A stretch of 46,355 nucleotides of DNA, from assembly GCA_030747075.1 (NCBI GenBank), contig JASLLL010000022.1, positions 1-46,355 of the forward strand, given 5' to 3'. Numbering within the stretch: the stretch's first letter is position 1; each line of letters opens with the position of its first letter. A program made the translations under genes and the position numbers. This stretch comes from Gemmatimonadota bacterium (GTDB lineage: Bacteria; ARS69). The notes below the pieces were generated by a model. That model ran no database searches, had not been told where the DNA came from, and worked only from the letters and a program-made list of their open reading frames with translations. Shown here piece after piece: positions 14,763 to 25,498 of the stretch.

Positions 14763-16300
14763 CGGAGCACCGTGATGCGGATCACCGGCCCCTCGCGTGA
14801 GGCGGCCAGGAAGTAGACGCCGCCCGGGACAGGATGCCCCCTTCGGTCGCGAAGATCCCAGAGGGCGCTGTCGGGCCCGGGCGGTGCGAGGCGACGAACC
14901 TCTCGCCCGCGGACATCGACCACGCGCAGCGTTCCAGCTTCGCGGCCTGTTCCGAGGTGAACGCGCACCGGCACTCCGCGACTGGGGTTGGGCCACGCGC
15001 GCGCCTCGGCGAGCCGTCGCGGGTTCTCCGGCGAAGCGAATGTCGCGTCATCCGCCAGGCGGCGGTAATGAATGTCAAAGTCGCCGTCGCGGTCGTCCTT
15101 CCAGAGGACTGACACGGATCCGCCGTGAGCGATCACACTCGGACGAAGCGAACGCCCGGCAGAGTCCGACACGCGGTGGTCGGCGGCACCGGTCGTATCC
15201 CACGGCGCGCCGGGTGCGCGCGACCGGAGGAATACCTCTCGATTGAAGAGGGACACCCGTGCGTCGCTCCAGACGAGATGCATCGCCTGATCCGGCCCCC
15301 GGGCAAGGGACGGCTCGTCCGCGCCGTCCGCCGGGCGCGTGATCCGTTCCTCGGCGGACCAGCTCCCGCCGGGGGAGCGCACGCGGACGAAGAGGGCGCG
15401 ACCGCCATCCCGAGAGTCCGGCCAGACGACATGGGCCGAACCGTCCGTCGCGCAACCGAGAGCGGGGGCCCCGCCGACGGCTCCGGCCGTGTCCACCGTG
15501 TCCGGCGTCGTCCATGCCCCGGTTGCGGGATCGCGGAGTGCGTGAAGGATTCTCGCGCCGCCGTCCACGCTTCGCCAGACGGCGTGCAGGGTCCCGTCGG
15601 GAGCGGCGTCGGCAGCCACCAGTTCCGAAAGCGCGGAATCGGCGGTGATGCGGTCATCCGGAGCATCTCCCGCCGAGAGATCCCAGGCCGCTCCCGCACC
15701 TCGCGACCGGGCCAGGATCTCCGCGAAGTTCCCGTCAAAGCGGAAGTCGTACCACAGCACATGCAGCGCCCCGCTTTCCGCCACCACGGGAACGGGGACA
15801 TACCCGTTGTCTCCGTTGGTCTCGGGGTGGTCGGAAGTCGTGAATCGAATGTCGGCGGCGGGAGAGGCGTCCCAGCCACTACCGGGGGAGCGGGTCTTCG
15901 TGAAGATCTCGACATTCTGGATCCCGGCGACCCGGTAGTCGTGCCAGAAAAGGTGCAGATCCCCGTCGGGTGTCGCGGCCAGCGCCGGGTACTTGGCCCC
16001 GGCGAGCGCGCCGGGATACGCCTCCAGATAGTCCACGACGAGTTCAGCAGGTGTCCACTGACCCGACGAACATTGTCGGGAGTAGATGCGGTAGTTCTGG
16101 TTCGGGCCGTCGCGCTCCGCCCAGACGACATGGAGAGCCCCGTCGTCGGTCACCGCCATTGCGGCATGGTTCAGCCCGGTTTCGGAATCGGTGGCGGTGT
16201 CGGAGAGGTTTCGCTCCGCGGTCCAGTAGCCGCCCGCGTCCGCGGTCCAGACGCCCGCAAAGAGCGCGATGCTTGAGAGCACTCCCAGGAGCCGGGTCAT
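14759..16300 (-). CDS. Secreted BNR/sialidase-like propeller with FlgD-type sorting tail
   Basis: 513 residues with a signal peptide (MTRLLGVLSSIALFAGVWTADA). Repeated units read 'DG.LH.VW.D.R', for example GALHVVWAERD, GDLHLFWHDYR and GALHVLWYDFR. They are typical of BNR/exo-sialidase-like six-blade propellers, but no sialidase catalytic Arg triad or Asp box is obvious. The last roughly 80 residues are a FlgD-like Ig domain, starting AWPNPSRG and ending with a 'GGVYFL' strand and a basic tip, the surface-anchoring tail used in this lineage. Its ATG overlaps the TonB-receptor stop by four bases, and its own stop overlaps the next start, so it is translationally coupled in the B12 operon. Confidence 0.78.
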   Translation of the reverse strand: MTRLLGVLSSIALFAGVWTADAGGYWTAERNLSDTATDSETGLNHAAMAVTDDGALHVVWAERDGPNQNYRIYSRQCSSGQWTPAELVVDYLEAYPGALAGAKYPALAATPDGDLHLFWHDYRVAGIQNVEIFTKTRSPGSGWDASPAADIRFTTSDHPETNGDNGYVPVPVVAESGALHVLWYDFRFDGNFAEILARSRGAGAAWDLSAGDAPDDRITADSALSELVAADAAPDGTLHAVWRSVDGGARILHALRDPATGAWTTPDTVDTAGAVGGAPALGCATDGSAHVVWPDSRDGGRALFVRVRSPGGSWSAEERITRPADGADEPSLARGPDQAMHLVWSDARVSLFNREVFLRSRAPGAPWDTTGAADHRVSDSAGRSLRPSVIAHGGSVSVLWKDDRDGDFDIHYRRLADDATFASPENPRRLAEARAWPNPSRGVPVRVHLGTGREAGTLRVVDVRGREVRRLAPPGPDSALWDLRDRRGHPVPGGVYFLAASREGPVIRITVLR

Positions 16301-18204
16301 GGCGTTCGCCCCCAGGTCAGTCCCGCCGAGAAGGACCGCCCCGGCAGCGGGTACTGGCGAAGGTCGCGGGCGTCGCGATCGGTCAGATTCGTGACGGAGA
16401 GGACTGCGCGAAGATCGGGGCGCACAGGAATGCGAAGGTGCAGGTCACCGAGAAGGCGCCCGCCGAGGGCCTTTGTGTTCGATCGGGTCAGGAAGACGCG
16501 ATTCACCCCACGCCATACCGTCTCGATCTCCCCGAGGCTCGCATGCCGGACGATGACACCGGCGGACCCGCTCCAGGGAGCGCGGTGGGGGAGTTCCATT
16601 CCGTGGGTGTTGGGCTCCCCGGTTCGGTCGCGGGCGTCCAGTCTCGTCACGGTGCCGGAGAGCGTGGCGGACAGCGAATGCCCCAGCGGAAACGCGGCGG
16701 CTGCTTCCGCCTCCCATCCGAAGATCCGTGCGCGGCCGATGTTGTGCGGTCGCCAGATTCCCGCAGCCCCCGGGGTCCACTGGATGAGGTCGTGGATGTC
16801 GCGGAGAAAGGCGTGCGCTTCCAGACGGGCGCCGCCGGGGAGGCGCGAGAGAAGGACTCCGGCGTCGAGGTCGCGACCCGTCTCCGGGCGCAACCCGGGG
16901 TTCCCGGCAGCCGTGGCCCGGGCGGGCCAGAACAGATCGTCGAAGGAAGGCGCGCGACGGGAGAGTCCTGCCGACGCACTGAGTACGGCGCGGCGGGGGA
17001 GAAGCTCCCACGACACACCGGCTCGCGGGGCCACGGTCGGCGCGAATCCTTCGATGGCATCGACGCGGAGGGCGGCGGTCGCAGTGAGGTCGCGGCCGAG
17101 GAGACGGCCCCGGGAACCCGCACGAAGCGATGCATACCCAAGGACGCGCCGCCGATCGCCGTCTGTCGTGCTGAGGAGATGGTCCAGGCTCGCTCCCGTG
17201 GAGGCCACGAGCGCCACCGGTCCGGCTTGCGCCGGGAAGCGTGCGTCACCCGCGAATCTCGCATTTCGGTGGCGGTCGTCCACCGGCCCGAACGCGGCTC
17301 CCGGTTCGCGGTAGGTGCGTTCCGCACGGAACCACGAGAGATCCACGAACGCGTCTCCGTCCGGCGTGTCGCTGGTTTCGATGCGAAGCGCGCCCGAGAT
17401 CCGCGAGTCCCGCAGCCTGGCCGTGGGGGAGGGGAACTCGTCGCTTCCGGGGACGCCGCGCTCCGCGAGGAAGGCGGAGAGGTTCACGCGTGCAGCGTGG
17501 CCGCCCACGGCGAGGTCGGTGCGAAGGTCGGCCTCGGTGCGCGAGATGTCGCCGTTCGTGGAACTGCCGGAAGGCGCGTACGAGTCGGACGCGGCGAACA
17601 AGCTCGCGCCGACGCGTGTGCGCGTGCCCCACGGCGTGCGTTTCGAGAGCCAGCCCGCCACGCGCTGCTCTCCGCGGGACCCTCCGCTCGCGCGGAATCC
17701 GGCGGCCCCGGGGCGCACTTCGCGAGTGCGGACATGGACCACGCCAGCGAGGGCGTCCGTGCCCCAGAGCGCGGACGCGCCTCCGCGGAGAACCTCCACG
17801 CGGGACACGAAATCGAGTGGAAGGGACGAGAGATCCGCGCCGCCACCCTGAGCAGTACTCCACCGTCGCCCGTCCACGAGAACCAGCACCTGTTCGGTCG
17901 ATGAACCGCGAATGGATGCTCCCGTTCCGGTTCCCGGCCCCGCGATGGAAGCGATGCGCACTCCGGCGAGCGAGGCGAGCAGTTCGCCGACATCCCCGCC
18001 CGGGCGCCGGTCGATGGCCGCGTCGCCGACGATGCTTCGCGGGATGGGAACCGCCTCGGCGGGCCATTCGTCGGCGCGAATGACCACCGGAGGCAGGCGC
18101 CATTCCCGCGGGGGAGGCGTCGGCGCGGGCGGGTCGGTCCCGGTCGCCGCAGCTGGAAGGAGCGCCAGCAGCAGTGCGCCCGGGAGGAGGGGGCGAAGGT
18201 TCAT
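16297..18204 (-). CDS. btuB: TonB-dependent outer-membrane receptor, BtuB-like (corrinoid uptake)
   Basis: 635 residues from ATG 18204, close to the usual BtuB length of about 610. A signal peptide is followed by a TonB-box-like PPVVIRAD. The plug (about 55-160) has the usual signatures GASIRGSSTEQVLVLVDG and VEVLRGGASALWGTDALAGVV. A 22-strand barrel with long loops fills the rest, ending 'GRSFSAGLTWGR'. It lies two bases after the stop of the propeller gene and under a cobalamin riboswitch, so corrinoid import across the outer membrane is the best reading. The energiser (TonB/ExbBD) and the inner-membrane ABC transporter BtuCDF are not in the window. Confidence 0.88.
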   Translation of the reverse strand: MNLRPLLPGALLLALLPAAATGTDPPAPTPPPREWRLPPVVIRADEWPAEAVPIPRSIVGDAAIDRRPGGDVGELLASLAGVRIASIAGPGTGTGASIRGSSTEQVLVLVDGRRWSTAQGGGADLSSLPLDFVSRVEVLRGGASALWGTDALAGVVHVRTREVRPGAAGFRASGGSRGEQRVAGWLSKRTPWGTRTRVGASLFAASDSYAPSGSSTNGDISRTEADLRTDLAVGGHAARVNLSAFLAERGVPGSDEFPSPTARLRDSRISGALRIETSDTPDGDAFVDLSWFRAERTYREPGAAFGPVDDRHRNARFAGDARFPAQAGPVALVASTGASLDHLLSTTDGDRRRVLGYASLRAGSRGRLLGRDLTATAALRVDAIEGFAPTVAPRAGVSWELLPRRAVLSASAGLSRRAPSFDDLFWPARATAAGNPGLRPETGRDLDAGVLLSRLPGGARLEAHAFLRDIHDLIQWTPGAAGIWRPHNIGRARIFGWEAEAAAAFPLGHSLSATLSGTVTRLDARDRTGEPNTHGMELPHRAPWSGSAGVIVRHASLGEIETVWRGVNRVFLTRSNTKALGGRLLGDLHLRIPVRPDLRAVLSVTNLTDRDARDLRQYPLPGRSFSAGLTWGRTP

Positions 18205-18206
18205 GG

Positions 18207-19820
18207 CTACCGGACCCGGAGGATGCGTCGGCAGACGGACTCGCCCGCGGCGCGAACCCGGGTGAAGTACACTCCCGGTGCGGCATCTTCGCCGGCGTCG
18301 GTGCGGCCGTCCCAGGTGACGCGGGACCCGCCCGCGGGAAGGCGTCCCGGCCGGAGTTCGGCGACGCTTCGTCCCGAGACATCGAACAGTGTCACGGTGG
18401 CCTCGGCCTCGTTCGGAAGCGAAAGCTCGAGCGTCACCGTTGTGCGAAACGGTTGCGGGAAGGCGCGTCCCACGGCGAGAGTCGGGGCCGCGGGCGCACT
18501 CCGAACAAGGGTCACCGGCGGGAGGAAAGTCAGATCTCCCGCGGAATGGATCCAGCCGACGCGGTAGGTGTACGAGTATCCGTCGCGCGTTGCGGCATCG
18601 GTCCACTCGGACACTTCGGCGAACGGGAGATTCGTGGCGACCGGAGAGAAGATCGTGTTGGCGGGACCCTGCCGATCGATGGCAAAGCCCGCGACCCCTG
18701 CGTACGGACTGGCGGTCCACGAGAGCCGGATTCCGTCCGGGGCGTTCCATGCACTCGGAGGGCGCATCGCCAGGCCCACCGATGCGTCGGTCTCCACCAC
18801 GGCGAGGTCGATCGGGCCGTCGTTGACCGCCCACGCGTGCAGGCTGTCGGGTGCGGAGTGGTCCAGTCGATAGAGCAGATCCGCACCGAAGTCGGGCACG
18901 AGAAGGTGGCCGTCCGGGTCGAGGCGCGGGTTGCCGTAGAATCCGCCACCAGGGATCAGCGGATCGTCCGGGCCGTGAAGAAGCGTGAGCGTGTTCGCGT
19001 TGTAGGACCAGATCTCGGAAGCGAAGGAAGGCGTGGTGATGCTGAGCCAGCCGAGACCGGTCGTGTCGATGGCACCGCCCCCGGGGAAGGCCGGGATGGG
19101 AAGCGTGTCCAGCGGGGCCAGTCCTACCGGGTCCACCACATGGATCTCACCGGTCGTGAGGAAGAAGTCGCCGGTACAGATCACATGGACCGTGCCATCC
19201 GGGGCGGGCAGACAGGCTTGCGGGTTGGTGCCGACCGGGATCGTGGCCACGACAGAGAGGCCTGCGGGGTCGAGGACGGTGACGGTTCCGGGATCGTAGG
19301 CGTAGGTCGTGAAGTCGAAGCCGGTGTTTGCGACAAAGAGCCACCCGCCCGCGCGACACATTCCCTCCGGACTCTTGCCGACCGCAGCCGTATCGGTGAC
19401 GGCACCGGTCCACGGGTGGACCTCGTACACGGCGTTTGCGCCCAGTGCCGAGACGAACGCGGACTCCCCGGGAAACTCAACGGCCCACGGATTGGATCCT
19501 GCGGGGAGCGAAGTGGTGGTGAGCGTGGACTGGGTGAGCAGATCGAACAGCGTGAGGTCTCCTGAAGAGGAGTTGACCACAAGCAGTGCCGATTCATCGT
19601 CGGAGAGTTCGACGCGGTTGGCGCCGGAGCCCACCGAAGCGATGGCGTTCACCACACTTCCCGAATCGAGATCGACGCGGGTGATCGTGGCATCGTTGGA
19701 GCCAATCACATAGGCGGCATTCGCGGGCGGCGCGGCGTCAGCAGACCCGGACGAAACGGGGGCGGCAAGGAGCATGGCAAGCAGCATCGACAAGCGTGAA
19801 TGCGTCAGCGTCTTCCACAT
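18207..19820 (-). CDS. Secreted YVTN beta-propeller + FN3-like + FlgD sorting domain
   Basis: 537 residues from ATG 19820, chosen because GGAG lies about ten bases upstream and a signal peptide (ending SSGSADA) starts there; the frame extends to 19880 without support. A seven-blade YVTN-type propeller covers about 30-330 (NAAYVIGSNDATITRVDLDSG marks the first blade). An FN3-like module follows (about 345-430, IRLSWTASPYAGVAGF), then a FlgD-like Ig/sorting tail ending 'GVYFTRVRAAGESVCRRILRVR'. It is the first gene after the cobalamin riboswitch and a paralogue of the lipoprotein at the operon's end, so it may be a corrinoid-capture protein displayed on the surface by the sorting tail rather than by lipid. 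Confidence 0.8.
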   Translation of the reverse strand: MWKTLTHSRLSMLLAMLLAAPVSSGSADAAPPANAAYVIGSNDATITRVDLDSGSVVNAIASVGSGANRVELSDDESALLVVNSSSGDLTLFDLLTQSTLTTTSLPAGSNPWAVEFPGESAFVSALGANAVYEVHPWTGAVTDTAAVGKSPEGMCRAGGWLFVANTGFDFTTYAYDPGTVTVLDPAGLSVVATIPVGTNPQACLPAPDGTVHVICTGDFFLTTGEIHVVDPVGLAPLDTLPIPAFPGGGAIDTTGLGWLSITTPSFASEIWSYNANTLTLLHGPDDPLIPGGGFYGNPRLDPDGHLLVPDFGADLLYRLDHSAPDSLHAWAVNDGPIDLAVVETDASVGLAMRPPSAWNAPDGIRLSWTASPYAGVAGFAIDRQGPANTIFSPVATNLPFAEVSEWTDAATRDGYSYTYRVGWIHSAGDLTFLPPVTLVRSAPAAPTLAVGRAFPQPFRTTVTLELSLPNEAEATVTLFDVSGRSVAELRPGRLPAGGSRVTWDGRTDAGEDAAPGVYFTRVRAAGESVCRRILRVR

Positions 19821-19977
19821 GATGAGAGTCTCCGGAAGCGGGATGGAAACTCGGCGGCCGATCCGCACTGGGCTTCGCATACGGAGACATCGTCCGCCGG
19901 TTGGCGGAACCCCGAAGCCGAAGTGTTGACAAGGATCGGAATCACCGGCCTCACCCTCGAAGGCGGTCCACGAAAGT

Positions 19978-20113
19978 GTTCGGGTCGGTCTCCTGGCTCG
20001 CGGGTCTTCCTCGCTCCGCGCCTTCCGGTTTCCCGTGGCATGAATGCGGAGGTTGTCGCCGCTTACAGTGGCGGGGCCGCGCCGGCGTTGAACCGGCTTC
20101 CCTTTACCCGAAC
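19978..20113 (-). promoter_or_regulatory. Cobalamin (adenosylcobalamin-type) riboswitch
   Basis: Read on the minus strand, the element has the hallmark pieces in order. These are AAAGGGAAGCCGGT near the 5' end, CGCGGCCCCGCCACTGTAAG (the conserved GCCACTG-type core), ATGCCAC, GGAAGGCGC and AGCCAGGAGACC. The closing helix P1 is an exact 8-bp pair: GTTCGGGT (20113-20106) with ACCCGAAC (19985-19978). The start codon of the first operon gene is 158 bases downstream. That leader includes the hairpin CCGCC-AACC-GGCGG, which could be part of the expression platform. The expected behaviour is repression of the whole 19.8-13.7 kb operon when corrinoid is plentiful. The segment 20114-20285 holds a possible minus-strand -35 (TTGACC, near 20184-20189) and the leader of the divergent cytochrome gene. 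Confidence 0.95.
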
Positions 20114-20285
20114 GCGATGGTCATGACAACCGCCCCTTGCGGAAACGACTGCCACGACCGATAGAATCATGCGGGGGAGGCAGGGTCAAGGTGGCGATTC
20201 CCCGAAGGAGAGCAGAGTGGTAGGATTCCACCATTGGCAAATGACGCACGGCCGTTTGGCGGCCGATGACCCGAAGGAGCGTTCC

Positions 20286-21740
20286 TTGTCCCGACTTGCG
20301 AAGCGCTTGGTGCTGGCGGTACTTGTGTGGATCCCGATCGCGGTGGTTCTGACCGCGCTTCCGGCAAGTGGCGGAGACTCCGAGGAGTCTGCCGGTTCTG
20401 TAGCCCTTCCCGCCACCGCGGCGGGAGTGGACAGCCTTCTCCACGAGATGGAAGAAGACTCCCACGATCTCTTCTTTGGTCCTTTCGGACCCGACCTCCT
20501 CCTCGTCTCCACGACGGATGGGCGCGGAGAAACCGCCCCCTGCGGGTGAGGCAAGAGCCCCCGGGGGGGACTGGCCCGGCGGGCCGGTTATCTTGCAGAG
20601 ATGAGAGCGAAGTACGAGAGTGTTCTCCTTGTGGACGCGGGCGATATCGCCGGGCACCAGAAGCCGACCGCGCTTCCTCGCGCGCTCTTTCTGATCGAGG
20701 CGTTTGCCCGCATGGGATACGACGCCGCCACACTCGGACCGGCGGACCTGGAACTGCCGCGGGAAGTGGTGCTGCCCGTGATTCAGGAAGCGCCCTTTCC
20801 CATTCTGTCCGCCAACCTGCTCGACACCGTGACCGGGGAAGGAATCCTGCCGCATTCGGTCGTGCTGGAAAGAGGGGACTTGCGCATCGGGGTCACCGCG
20901 GTGCTGTCTCCGACGACCGTGGAGCCGAGTGTTCTCGCCGGGTTTGGCGTGGTGGCGGAAGACCCGGAAGAGGTGCTCCGTGAGCTTCTCCCCGAGCTTC
21001 GGGAAAAGTGCGATGTGGTGGTCCTCCTGTGCCGCTCGACCATTGCCCAGGCGCGCGTCCTTGCGGAGTCGCTGGATGGATGGATTGATGTGCTGGTCCT
21101 CGGAAGCGGCTCGCCCGGTTACGGCACCGTGCTCCCCGCGGAGGGAGGTGCGCTCTATCTGGTGTCCGGATCGCGGGGACGCAGCGTGGGCGTGGCGCGC
21201 CTTGAACTTCGCGGAGGCCATGTGTCACGGGCGATGGGCGAGTTCGTCTCGCTGAGCCAGGGTCTTCCGGAAGATGAGGAGATGGCCGGCTTCGTGGAGG
21301 AGTTCCATATTCGCCTGAACGAGATTGTCCGCAGCACTTTTATGGCGGACGCCATGGAACTGCGCAGGCACGGGGACGAGTACTACATGGGCGCGGACTC
21401 CTGCCGCCCGTGTCACCGTCCCGAGTTCCTGAGCTGGAAGCAGACCGGCCATGCCAGCGCGTTCGAGACGCTGGTGGAGGAGCACTCCGACGCCCTCCCC
21501 GAGTGCGTCGCGTGTCATGTAGTCGGGGCGGGAGAGGCAGCCGGATACAACCCGAGGGTGAAGGGGTTGTCGGAACTCGTGAATGTTCAGTGCGAGGTCT
21601 GCCACGGTCCCGGCAGCGAACACTCCCGCGACGGCACCTACGGAGACGGGCTTGGGGAAAAGGGATGCACGATATGCCACGATGCCGACAACAGCCCGGA
21701 CTTCGATCTGGAGACCTACTGGCCGAAGATCGCGCACTGA
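20286..21740 (+). CDS. Candidate selenoprotein: metallophosphoesterase-like domain + tetraheme cytochrome c (TGA = Sec)
   Basis: A conceptual 484-residue protein read through one in-frame TGA at 20547-20549 (residue 88). Start TTG 20286 has AAGGAG seven bases upstream and gives a signal peptide (MSRLAKRLVLAVLVWIPIAVV). GTG 20217, with its own GAAGGAG, is an alternative. The codons before and after the TGA are in one frame and read TAPCG-U-GKSPRGGLARRAGYL. In the UshA-like multiheme family the same place reads PCGC, then GGLxRRA, so the TGA sits on the second cysteine. The N-terminal domain keeps the fold (LLVDAGDI, PILSANLL, GVTAVLSP) but lacks the usual Asn-His metal ligands. Four CxxCH heme sites follow at residues 373, 407, 436 and 461. 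It is exported and probably periplasmic. The alternative is a nonsense mutation of a TGC/TGT codon. Confidence 0.75.
20551..20596 (+). promoter_or_regulatory. Bacterial SECIS-like hairpin immediately after the TGA
   Basis: One base after the TGA, GCAAGA (20551-20556) pairs exactly with TCTTGC (20591-20596). Inside it, ACTGGCCC (20570-20577) pairs with GGGCCGGT (20581-20588, one U-G wobble) around the apical loop GGC (20578-20580). The loop lies 28 bases after the TGA and begins with G. This fits the published bacterial SECIS rules (apical loop about 16-37 nt from UGA, a G among its first two bases). A competing CCCC/GGGG hairpin (20558-20569) is possible. The element lies inside the coding frame, as bacterial SECIS elements do. 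Confidence 0.6.
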
Positions 21741-21754
21741 CCGAGCGGGTCAGT
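21736..21754. terminator. Palindrome spanning both stop codons of convergent genes
   Basis: ACTGACC and GGTCAGT form a perfect 7-bp stem around GAGCG. The TGA of the cytochrome gene (21738-21740) and the reverse-strand TGA of the sulfatase-like gene (21750-21752) both lie within it. It is probably a compact bidirectional terminator, although no T-tract follows on either side. Confidence 0.5.
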
Positions 21755-23690
21755 CGCCGACATAGCCCAGGCTTTCCATGCGCTGACGGAGCTCGTCGTC
21801 GATCGTGCGTGTCCCCGCATCGGTGACTCGGGAATCGCCCAGCCGGACCCACGCATTCAGGATTTCCACAAGGTCCGCCAGCTCACGGGGTCGTTCCCCG
21901 GAGAGATCGTGGAGCTCGCCGGGATCGAGGCGAAGGTCGAACAGTTCCATGCGGGGTTTCTCCGCTCCCGGTGTCCGGACGAGCTTCCACCCGTCACGGA
22001 TGACGAAGCGCTGCTTCGCGCGATTGGCACTGGCCTCCCAGTCCTCTCGCCAGTTCCCGGCCAGATCCGGATCCTGCGCGATCTCCTTCGGGATGTTCGA
22101 GTCGATCCGGTCGTTCAGGTGCGGGAACCGACAGAACCCGGACTCTCCGAAGCGAATCCGCGACGCGTCGGCAAGCGGAACCGCGCCGGAGTTCTCGCGC
22201 GGAAGGTCCACAGCCTCTTCGACAAGCGGGAAGAGATCGGTGAGGCCGGTCGCGGCCGCGGGGGGGACATCTCCGGGCGGGTAGTCAAAGCCTGCGAGAA
22301 TGAGCGGAATGTCGGTAGCCGGGCCGTAGACGAAGTCGCCGTGGTTGAAGTGATACCCGTGTTCGTTCAGGCTCTCCCCATGATCCGAGGTGGCGATGAT
22401 CCGCGTGTTCTGAAGCCACCCCGATTCCTCCATGGTCTTGAGAAGGCGACCGAGCGCGCGGTCCGCCGTGGCCACTTCGGCGTCGTAGAGGCGACGAGCA
22501 TGGGCGCGAGTCCGGGCGGAGAGTGGATTCCGGTAGGTCATTTCCCCCTTCCCGATCCGGTGGTAGTCGAAGGCGTCGCGATACTCCCCCTCGTAACCGG
22601 GATCGAAGCGTCGCGCATAGACTCGCGGGGGATCGTAAGGCATGTGGGGTGCGAGCCAGTGAACCCACAGGAAGAACGGTTGGTCTGCGGGGCGAGCGCG
22701 AAGCCACGCAATCGCGCGATCGGTGATGACTTCGGCGCGTTCGCGGTGGCGCATGGCGGCCAGCGTCAGGAGCCGGAGGAGGCCGCGTTGCGGGGAGAGG
22801 CGTGACCAGTCGTCGCCGCGGTCATCGGCCACCGTGAACCCCCGGTAAATGCCGCTGTCGTGGGAGAGCACCGGGTTGGAGTTGACGGCAGCGGTCGCCC
22901 ATCCGGCTTCACGGAATCGGGACGCCAGCGTGGGACGCGCGTCGCCCAGCGTGTAGTGGAAGTTGTCGCGCACCCCGTGGTCGTGCGGATAGGCGGCGGT
23001 CATGAGCGATGCGATGGCGGGAAGTGTTCGCGGAAGCGGCGTCACCGCCCGGGCGAAACGGACCCCGCCGCGTGCAAGCCGGTCGAGGTGCGGACTCGTG
23101 GGGGAGGGGTGCCCCGCGTATCCGAGACGGTCGGCCCGGAGAGTGTCGATGGTGAGAAGGAGGACGCTGGGTCGGTCGCCGGGGATCACGCCTTGCGGGC
23201 GTATCGGGATGAGGGCGGGCAGAACGAGAAGGAACGCGATCAAGGCGTCCGAGAGGCGCGGCCGCCGAGTCGGGAGGGCGCGGCCGATCAGCACGCCGAG
23301 TCCCTGCCCGAGGATGAGTCCGGTCAGAGCGGAGAGGACCGCGCGTCCGGCGAGGGCGACCGGCGCGACTTCCCCGAGGAGGGTGGAACCGGAGACGGAG
23401 TTCAGCCAGAGTGCCCCGCCCGCCCCGGCTCCCAGTACGGTTCCAAATGGAGAGAGGCGGCCGACTCGGGGGATCTTCGGCAGGCAGGCCACGACGATGC
23501 CTGCCATGGCACCGACGAGCGCCAGTTCGGAGAAGTCGCGCACGGGCCGGGAGAGCGCGGGTCCCGCGCCCAGTCGGACGCAGAGGTCGGGGACGCCGAT
23601 CAGGAGCAGTCCGGCCGCCCCGCGAAGCGCACTGCCCGCGAGGCGGTGGCGAAGCGTGGGATCCCCCCGGCCTTCGGGGGATGCCGTCAC
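21750..23690 (-). CDS. Membrane sulfatase / alkaline-phosphatase-superfamily enzyme
   Basis: 646 residues from GTG 23690, which overlaps the stop of the beta-helix gene (GTGA). About five hydrophobic helices occupy residues 15-175, then a periplasmic hydrolase domain begins with the metal-binding strand LLLTIDTLRADRLGYAG and closes with ATSDHGESLNEHGYHFNHG. Where sulfatases have the formylglycine motif CxPSR, this protein reads TLPAI, so Thr is the likely nucleophile. That favours a phosphodiesterase or phosphotransferase (EptA/LtaS-like chemistry) over a true sulfatase. It likely acts on an envelope polymer or lipid. The genome neighbour is a surface beta-helix protein in the same transcript. 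Confidence 0.82.
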   Translation of the reverse strand: MTASPEGRGDPTLRHRLAGSALRGAAGLLLIGVPDLCVRLGAGPALSRPVRDFSELALVGAMAGIVVACLPKIPRVGRLSPFGTVLGAGAGGALWLNSVSGSTLLGEVAPVALAGRAVLSALTGLILGQGLGVLIGRALPTRRPRLSDALIAFLLVLPALIPIRPQGVIPGDRPSVLLLTIDTLRADRLGYAGHPSPTSPHLDRLARGGVRFARAVTPLPRTLPAIASLMTAAYPHDHGVRDNFHYTLGDARPTLASRFREAGWATAAVNSNPVLSHDSGIYRGFTVADDRGDDWSRLSPQRGLLRLLTLAAMRHRERAEVITDRAIAWLRARPADQPFFLWVHWLAPHMPYDPPRVYARRFDPGYEGEYRDAFDYHRIGKGEMTYRNPLSARTRAHARRLYDAEVATADRALGRLLKTMEESGWLQNTRIIATSDHGESLNEHGYHFNHGDFVYGPATDIPLILAGFDYPPGDVPPAAATGLTDLFPLVEEAVDLPRENSGAVPLADASRIRFGESGFCRFPHLNDRIDSNIPKEIAQDPDLAGNWREDWEASANRAKQRFVIRDGWKLVRTPGAEKPRMELFDLRLDPGELHDLSGERPRELADLVEILNAWVRLGDSRVTDAGTRTIDDELRQRMESLGYVGD

Positions 23691-25216
23691 CGGTAGAGGG
23701 CCTTGACGCGTCCCCAGCTGGCCGGAGCGAGGGAGGTCGTCCCGCAGGCGTCGGCGGCGTCGTGGGCTCCCATGTCCGAACCGTCGAGTCCTGCGCCCAG
23801 ACACGGAGAAGACGCGGCGAGCGCCAGGTCTGCAGGGAGCGCGGAGGCATCGCAATACTCGGGGTCCGCGCGGATGTTCCCGGCAATCCCCGTTCGGTCT
23901 TCGCAGGTGCCCCCGTATCCATCGTCCGGGTTGGCGGGGTCGTTGTAGACATCGTTGTAGTGGAACACGGGATTCGCGGAAGCACCCCCGCAGGAGAATC
24001 CGGCGCCTGCGAGCGTCCCGGCGATGATGTTGTTTCGAATGGTCCCGATGGACTGCCCGGTGACATGGATCCCGCCGCCGGTGCCGACAGTGGTGTTTGC
24101 CGAGAAAGAGTTGTCCTCCACGGAGTAGAAGGCAAAGCTCCCCGTGGACGGCCCCTCCAGGAGGAGCCCGCCTCCGTTGGCTGCCGAGTTTCCGGCGATG
24201 TCCGTTCCGCGGACTTCGTCCGCCATGCTGTAGGCCAGGTGAATCCCGCCGCCGTCGCCCGTGGCGGTATTGTTCAGGATGGACCCGTTCAGGAAGCGAT
24301 TGGATCCATCGGTAGAGGCCAGACCTCCGCCGTTGATGCCCGCCGTGTTCCCATCGAGAATGCAGTGCTGATGAACGCTGGTTCCGCCATCCAGATAGAT
24401 CCCGCCCCCATTCTCGGTGGCCTGATTCGCCGTGATCTCGTTCCACCATCCGGCCAGCCCTGTATCCATCAGCATGATTCCGCCGCCGTGCCGCCCGGAG
24501 AAGTTCCCGTCCACGAGGTTCCGCTCGAAGAGAATGGCGGATCGGGAGAAGAACCCGCCCCCGCCGGATATGGTGGAAGCGGCGGAAGGGTCTGCCGAGT
24601 TGGAGAGGATGGAGCAGTCGGAGACGACCGCGTCCTCTGAGTCGATTGCGACGGAGATGCCTCCTCCGCGAAGGCCGGCGATGTTGTCCTGGATGGTGCA
24701 CTGGGTCACGCGTGCCGCAGAGCCGGAGATCTGGATGCCGCCGCCGTTCTGGCTGGCGTAGTTGTCGCGGACGATGCAGAGCGAAATCTCCAGCGCAGTT
24801 CCCGTGCCGCAAAAGATGCCGCCGCCCAGGACCGTGTCGCCTCCGGTGATGGTGAAACCCTCCAGCCGTGTGGCCGCTCCGGCGGTGCCAGCCTCCACGA
24901 CGCTGCCGGTTGTGCTGTCCGGGAGCTGGATCACGGTCTCATGCGAGGAAGGATCGAAGGAGGTGAAGGTGGCGTCATAGCCCCCCCGAAGCACCACGCC
25001 GTCGACCAGGAATATCTGTTCCTCGTAAGGAGACCCGGCGTCGGAGACATGAACTTCGTCCCCCGGAGTCGCTGCGGCCAAGGCCGTCGAGATGGACGAG
25101 TGATGGTCGGGGACCAGGATGACCGCCGCGGACGACGGCAGCGCGACGGAGAGCAGCAGACAGAGCGCGCCGCAGAGCAAACGGGGGTCTCCAGTGACAC
25201 AGCGACGGAGGGCCAT
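23687..25216 (-). CDS. Secreted right-handed beta-helix (polymorphic repeat) surface protein
   Basis: 509 residues from ATG 25216, which has GGGAGG about ten bases upstream; the frame runs to 25261 without a ribosome site. The signal peptide ends SVALPSSA. The mature part opens with the PSSISTALAAATPGDEVHV-like cap typical of pectin-lyase-fold proteins. Many turns follow of the form 'NxA..GGGI.....' (NGGGIQISG, LRGGGISV, RHGGGIMLM, ENGGGIYLDGG, GINGGGLAS), as in polymorphic outer-membrane/right-handed beta-helix repeats. The last segment (GLDGSDMGAHDAADACG) resembles the common end cap of this family. No catalytic motif is evident; surface binding or adhesion is an inference. Confidence 0.8.
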   Translation of the reverse strand: MALRRCVTGDPRLLCGALCLLLSVALPSSAAVILVPDHHSSISTALAAATPGDEVHVSDAGSPYEEQIFLVDGVVLRGGYDATFTSFDPSSHETVIQLPDSTTGSVVEAGTAGAATRLEGFTITGGDTVLGGGIFCGTGTALEISLCIVRDNYASQNGGGIQISGSAARVTQCTIQDNIAGLRGGGISVAIDSEDAVVSDCSILSNSADPSAASTISGGGGFFSRSAILFERNLVDGNFSGRHGGGIMLMDTGLAGWWNEITANQATENGGGIYLDGGTSVHQHCILDGNTAGINGGGLASTDGSNRFLNGSILNNTATGDGGGIHLAYSMADEVRGTDIAGNSAANGGGLLLEGPSTGSFAFYSVEDNSFSANTTVGTGGGIHVTGQSIGTIRNNIIAGTLAGAGFSCGGASANPVFHYNDVYNDPANPDDGYGGTCEDRTGIAGNIRADPEYCDASALPADLALAASSPCLGAGLDGSDMGAHDAADACGTTSLAPASWGRVKALYR

Positions 25217-25498
25217 CAGTCTCAACCTCCCTGACGAGCGGATCTCGAAAAGAGTGTCCAAGGTGGCTCACCTTGATGGAATCGTAGCAAGCGTCCCCCG
25301 AAGCGACAACGGGCATTCTCCGGAGTTGTCGAGTGACGAAATCTCTCGATCGTAGTGAAGAATCGGCCGATTCCCTTCAGGGGCCGCAGTCTGAGGGTGT
25401 GCCTTCAGTCTGGCGCACCGGAAGACATCCGGGCTACGATTCCCCGCGTACTTCGCTCGTCGGGGGAAGTGCGTGACACACCCACCGGGAGGGCTGCG

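Follow-up and report, generated by a model that had tools for sequence, protein, structure and literature searches.

The UshA-like PCGU selenoproteins (NCBIfam NF041198, UshA_like_PCGU) are already catalogued as a family and carry a CxU motif (PMC13188914, PMC2398784). According to the bSECIS model of Zhang and Gladyshev (2005), which PMC13188914 quotes, a bacterial SECIS has a stem of 4–16 bp and a loop of 3–9 nt with a G among the first two loop bases, a spacing of 16–37 nt, and a free energy of −7.5 kcal/mol or lower. Among the closest known elements is the SECIS of E. coli fdhF which, like the element described here, is a short hairpin in the coding region with a GG-bearing loop after the Sec UGA. 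Here, we analyzed a stretch of 46,355 nt from a Gemmatimonadota bacterium (contig JASLLL010000022.1; hereafter the window), in which the forward strand carries an UshA-like PCGU selenoprotein gene (nt. 20286–21740). The protein adds a member to this known family, and a hairpin within its gene (nt. 20569–20589) is, judging by comparison with homologous genes, very likely the bacterial SECIS that drives selenocysteine insertion at the UGA (nt. 20547).

The gene comprises 484 codons with a putative TTG start, a likely ribosome binding site (GAAGGAG, nt. 20273–20279) lying 6 nt upstream of it, and one in-frame TGA (nt. 20547–20549) across which the frame stays open. The protein, when read through, has a signal-peptide-like N-terminus, the PCGU motif followed by GGLARRA, an UshA-like domain, and four CXXCH haem c sites, CRPCH (nt. 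21402–21416), CVACH (nt. 21504–21518), CEVCH (nt. 21591–21605), and CTICH (nt. 21666–21680), the first three of which are covered by PF13435. In an alignment of 38 TGA homologues, the Sec column (38/38), the wider P-C-G-U...G-G pattern, and all four haem sites, including the C/C/H of the first, are invariant. With C put for U in the query, the protein matched NF041198 (E = 8e-75) at 252.4 bits, which is under the curated cut-off of 275 bits; this cut-off is exceeded by paralogues in two genomes (G002 and G004). The motif features of the family, PCGU or PCGC, then GG, and a haem-binding C-terminus, are all present as invariant columns. The predicted structure (mean pLDDT 84.9) has the same N-terminal fold as the SoxB thiosulfohydrolase and 5′-nucleotidases (3ive, 1ush, 2wdc; Foldseek probability 1.00, E 4e-19 to 6e-18), but in comparison with these the GNHE metal motif is missing in the 38 family members aligned, and Sec and a tetraheme domain are added. 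Where an active UshA/SoxB metallophosphoesterase has its GNHE metal ligands, the window protein reads LGPADLEL, and NHE was found in none of the 38 aligned members. From a fold shared with 5′-nucleotidases and SoxB that has lost the NH metal motif, the modelled protein would appear to be an exported enzyme of redox function, whose C-x-U pair may exchange electrons with the haems.

The apical hairpin consists, by RNAfold, of a 5′ arm (nt. 20569–20577, GACTGGCCC) and a 3′ arm (nt. 20581–20589, GGGCCGGTT), both conserved and covarying in relatives, around a GGC loop (nt. 20578–20580) that keeps fixed coordinates in 28 sequences with the same arrangement, termed register B below. The stem (GACUGGCCC/GGGCCGGUU) has 9 bp with its terminal G-U and 8 bp without it, the latter being the figure given in a first-pass annotation of this DNA; the TGA, the GGC loop, and an enclosing GCAAGA (nt. 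20551–20556) and TCTTGC (nt. 20591–20596) are likewise all where that annotation had placed them. Its distance from TGA to loop (28 nt, within the 16–37 nt range) and its required early G in the loop (GGC) were also borne out. When 64 nt from the TGA were folded, exactly the annotated structure, outer stem included, was returned by RNAfold as the minimum free energy (MFE) fold (−27.4 kcal/mol), with −14.4 kcal/mol for the apical stem alone. A competing CCCC/GGGG hairpin, the dominance of which had been named as evidence against the element, does not dominate in RNAfold; this small side hairpin (nt. 20558–20568; arms 20558–20561 and 20565–20568) folds beside the apical stem, not instead of it, and is compatible with it, with 64% of its cells paired across the nine phylum sequences introduced below.

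The fold energy of the window by itself is unexceptional (z −1.15, with 32 of 200 dinucleotide shuffles equally good for the 64-nt fold), and the apical stem alone, with the protein and the codon usage of the gene held fixed, gave p ~0.06; single-sequence free-energy tests are uninformative, and the window hairpin alone is weak evidence. The structure had been put forward as an independent argument for recoding, which it is not as a single sequence and became only after codon choice and covariation were tested. It does lie in the coding frame as claimed, but the accompanying statement that it leaves GGLARRA undisturbed is imprecise, as the hairpin sits on the GGLARRA codons and the motif supplies part of the stem. 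A genome-wide pattern search for further such hairpins, in which the spacer was set too long, returned two unrelated places only.

Within the phylum, we compared nine TGA homologues that were not selected by pairing and have a protein identity to the window of ~34–45%, at which synonymous sites should be close to saturated. The contiguous apical stem in these comprises 9, 7, 6, 8, 7, 8, 8, 8, and 8 pairs. The outer stem (GCAAGA/TCTTGC), which the first-pass annotation had counted as part of the element, is complete in the window only. If the full double stem were the functional unit, this would agree with the MFE fold of the window and with an outer-stem pairing probability of 0.97 there, but the same probability is 0.00 in all eight other phylum sequences, only 28% of outer-stem cells are paired across the nine, and three of the six pairs are found in one sequence only, which makes a functional double stem very improbable. 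We have accordingly rejected the outer stem as a SECIS part, and on this comparison it is regarded as a chance coincidence of the window sequence. Its 5′ strand starts 1 nt after the UGA, within the area covered by a ribosome at the UGA.

Beyond the phylum, homologues were sought in two genome sets, one of 377 from a second phylum and one of 193 drawn from across the domain; a search of genome contigs with the window protein, which gave a single locus, had opened the second phylum. The 86 distinct TGA homologues comprise 28 in register B, 57 in a second arrangement (register A), and one left unclassified owing to undetermined bases. Register-B loops are GGC (19), GGA (4), GTC (3), GGT (1), or AGA (1). 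In register A, the loop (GGUCU in 55, GGACU in 2) sits on the second Gly codon and its first G follows the UGA after 18 nt, which is the exact distance of GGUCU in E. coli fdhF (verified against 5,368 E. coli genomes), and some members show a variant shifted by one base. The two registers are exactly three codons (9 nt) apart, A being upstream, and third codon positions pair with third positions in both. The finding of relatives that share the TGA but lack the pairing had been named beforehand as a possible refutation, and most NF041198 relatives outside the lineage do lack the annotated hairpin, but they have another one 9 nt upstream.

The existence of register A raises a rival as improbable as the double stem, in which the true SECIS of the window would be a register-A hairpin with its loop over the second Gly codon (nt. 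20568–20572), ~18 nt after the TGA, and the annotated hairpin a by-product of the codons CTG-GCC-CGG-CGG-GCC. The 57 TGA homologues with GGUCU (55) or GGACU (2) in this place, with the loop and spacing of fdhF, lend it some weight, as do several phylum sequences that can make 3–4 pairs there. The window, however, has GGACT in this place, not as a loop, and forms only 0–1 contiguous register-A pairs with an ensemble probability of 0.00, whereas the register-B stem is kept in 9/9 phylum sequences and covaries. Register A was, therefore, rejected for the window and its phylum and accepted for the 57 other homologues.

We consider it probable that this is one family with two mutually exclusive SECIS registers on the same GGLxRR codons, between which the element jumped while the protein remained unchanged, perhaps via dual-hairpin intermediates, and that different SelB proteins may prefer different registers. 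In trees of the first ~200 residues, the registers are strongly clustered and 4–6 changes are needed, although only about one or two of these are demanded by well-supported branches and the deep branches are weak; the register would, on these trees, have switched at least once or twice, with the number and direction depending on the weak deep branches. At two loci (L113 and L182), the register-A loop GGUCU lies inside a register-B stem, and at a third (L024), the register-B stem has an A-C mismatch and the ensemble prefers another, upstream hairpin (0.15 vs. 0.49). It is a matter of speculation that sequences such as these three are intermediates. No description of SECIS registers in the NF041198 family was found in one open-access literature collection, which is weak evidence of novelty.

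Several further loci show how the element and the motif vary. Two (L178 and L180, reverse strands) have a register-B SECIS on GGLAGRA with a linker one codon shorter and a five-base GGUCG loop; the hairpin thus follows the GG codons instead of staying at a fixed distance from the UGA. L182 (reverse strand, TGA at 203) encodes VPSGU instead of PCGU, with Ser replacing the resolving Cys, and L176, in the same genome, encodes CPTU, so the C-x-U pair is not universal. The genome of the window itself has a second, divergent UshA-like selenoprotein gene (L028, contig C29, TGA at nt. 1561–1563) with a register-B hairpin.

Covariation, with pair positions counted from the U of the UGA (position 1), was analyzed in 27 register-B sequences (25 distinct) from several lineages, a set chosen partly by pairing and hence biased towards structure. 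Among the 25 distinct sequences, 91.5% of register-B cells are paired, compared to 81.7% after shuffling (0/500) and at most 52% when the register is slid, and the covariation score is 0.358; shuffling lowers it to 0.190 and sliding to 0.129 or less. Compensatory changes, which the first-pass annotation had proposed to look for in relatives, are seen at synonymous sites, third codon positions pairing and co-varying with third positions across the 27 sequences. Pair 27-39 is G-C, G-U, U-A, or C-G in every sequence of the set, pair 30-36 is C-G or U-A in all bar one, and pair 24-42 is mostly G-C, sometimes C-G, and A-U in the window. Compensatory change of the kind expected of a bacterial SECIS is thus found in the homologues, the register-A relatives having another hairpin. 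The nine unselected phylum sequences are a cleaner test than the pairing-chosen set, and they show little double change. One locus (L026) prefers a different structure, except when its first 11 nt are masked, which a ribosome sitting on the UGA would do.

These data bear on a further alternative, namely that the hairpin is functionless, a default of a GC-rich genome and a fixed GGLARRA, with Sec insertion using some other element. The window taken alone leaves room for it (p ~0.06 by codon shuffle, and the 32/200 dinucleotide shuffles), but the summed stem length of the nine phylum sequences is 69, against a mean of 23.2 and a maximum of 53 in codon-preserving shuffles, with 0/5000 reaching 69 (a significance overstated by the relatedness of the sequences). 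Moreover, the stem needs CGG twice, and codon bias is an unlikely source of it because CGG is not the favored Arg codon of the gene (CGG 4, CGC 13). The stem is not formed in register-A relatives that share the motif, pair 30-36 being present in 4/57 of them though most encode GGLxRR, and the compensatory third-position changes already disfavor a default structure. Of the Cys homologues, ten are comparable in motif, and in these neither hairpin is formed (4 contiguous pairs at most); the control is limited to ten since most Cys homologues have PCGC...GG[IF]DRL, not GGLARR. Taken with these observations, a functionless hairpin is extremely unlikely, and register B stands as the preferred SECIS of the window.

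The recoding of the TGA to selenocysteine is very probably real; to the extent that sequence data can decide it, the question is settled. The frame is open and conserved through the TGA, and among the phylum genomes, an orthologue with TGA at the identical codon is present in 5/5 and a second TGA paralogue in 4. In the host genome, we found SelA (535 bits), SelB (matched at both its N-terminal and its C-terminal part within a single 678-aa frame, above cut-off), SelD (364 bits, itself with an in-frame TGA), and a tRNA-Sec with the anticodon TCA, i.e., all four components by which a Sec user is recognized. The least probable reading, a true stop arising from pseudogene mutation or assembly error with the downstream part starting anew at the ATG at nt. 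20601 (where a 379-aa frame does start), has a negligible chance of being correct, given the TGA at the identical codon in 86 homologues, the P-C-G-U...G-G invariant across it in 38 aligned proteins, and the complete Sec machinery of the host.

The SelD genes of the phylum hosts, which we compared for the loop preference of the host SelB, have two candidate hairpins each. The TGA-encoded host SelD (L018, contig C4, reverse strand, nt. 1531) has these ~16–18 and 36 nt past the UGA, and the second candidate (GCAG-GUY-CUGC) recurs in 3/4 phylum genomes.

The genes flanking the selenoprotein gene lie on the reverse strand. A cobalamin riboswitch (Rfam RF00174, 91 bits, nt. 19966–20126) reads away from it, with a beta-propeller-like protein with an FlgD-type tail (PF13860, nt. 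18207–19880) downstream of the riboswitch and a TonB-dependent receptor at nt. 16297–18834; together, these three probably form a B12 uptake operon. On the other side, a frame with a sulfatase domain (PF00884, nt. 21750–24812) adjoins the selenoprotein gene and is overlapped, in another frame, by NosD-like repeats (PF05048, nt. 23687–25261).

A ribosome reaching the UGA at nt. 20547 would melt the 5′ strand of the outer stem, which begins 1 nt past the UGA. By analogy with fdhF, the GGC loop 28 nt downstream would be the binding site of SelB loaded with GTP and Sec-tRNA. Selenocysteine would then be delivered at the UGA to make the PCGU motif, after which translation would run on through the UshA-like domain and the c554-like tetraheme tail. 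With the stem built on the GGLARRA codons, selection would act via synonymous third positions that pair with each other.

As regards what was known, the protein family is established, the hairpin is very probably a normal bacterial SECIS, and the locus is a sound, ordinary example of Sec recoding. What is added is that 85 natural SECIS elements, all lying on one protein motif but in two registers, allow the needs of SelB (loop, spacing, and stem) to be told apart from those of the protein. Searches assuming one SECIS position per selenoprotein family will mislead, as will trust in an MFE double stem from a single sequence. Compared to NF041198, the window protein shares the PCGU motif followed by GGLxRR, the degenerate 5′-nucleotidase fold, and the C-terminal CXXCH haem sites, but its SECIS lies three codons downstream of that in most members scoring above the cut-off. 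Compared to the bSECIS consensus in its quoted form, the window hairpin fits with a 3-nt loop and a C-GGC-G core (N1-G-G-N-N2), its 9 bp, 28 nt, and −14.4 kcal/mol showing no deviation within the quoted limits. Finally, fdhF presents GGUCU 18 nt after its UGA, whereas the window presents GGC 28 nt after its own.
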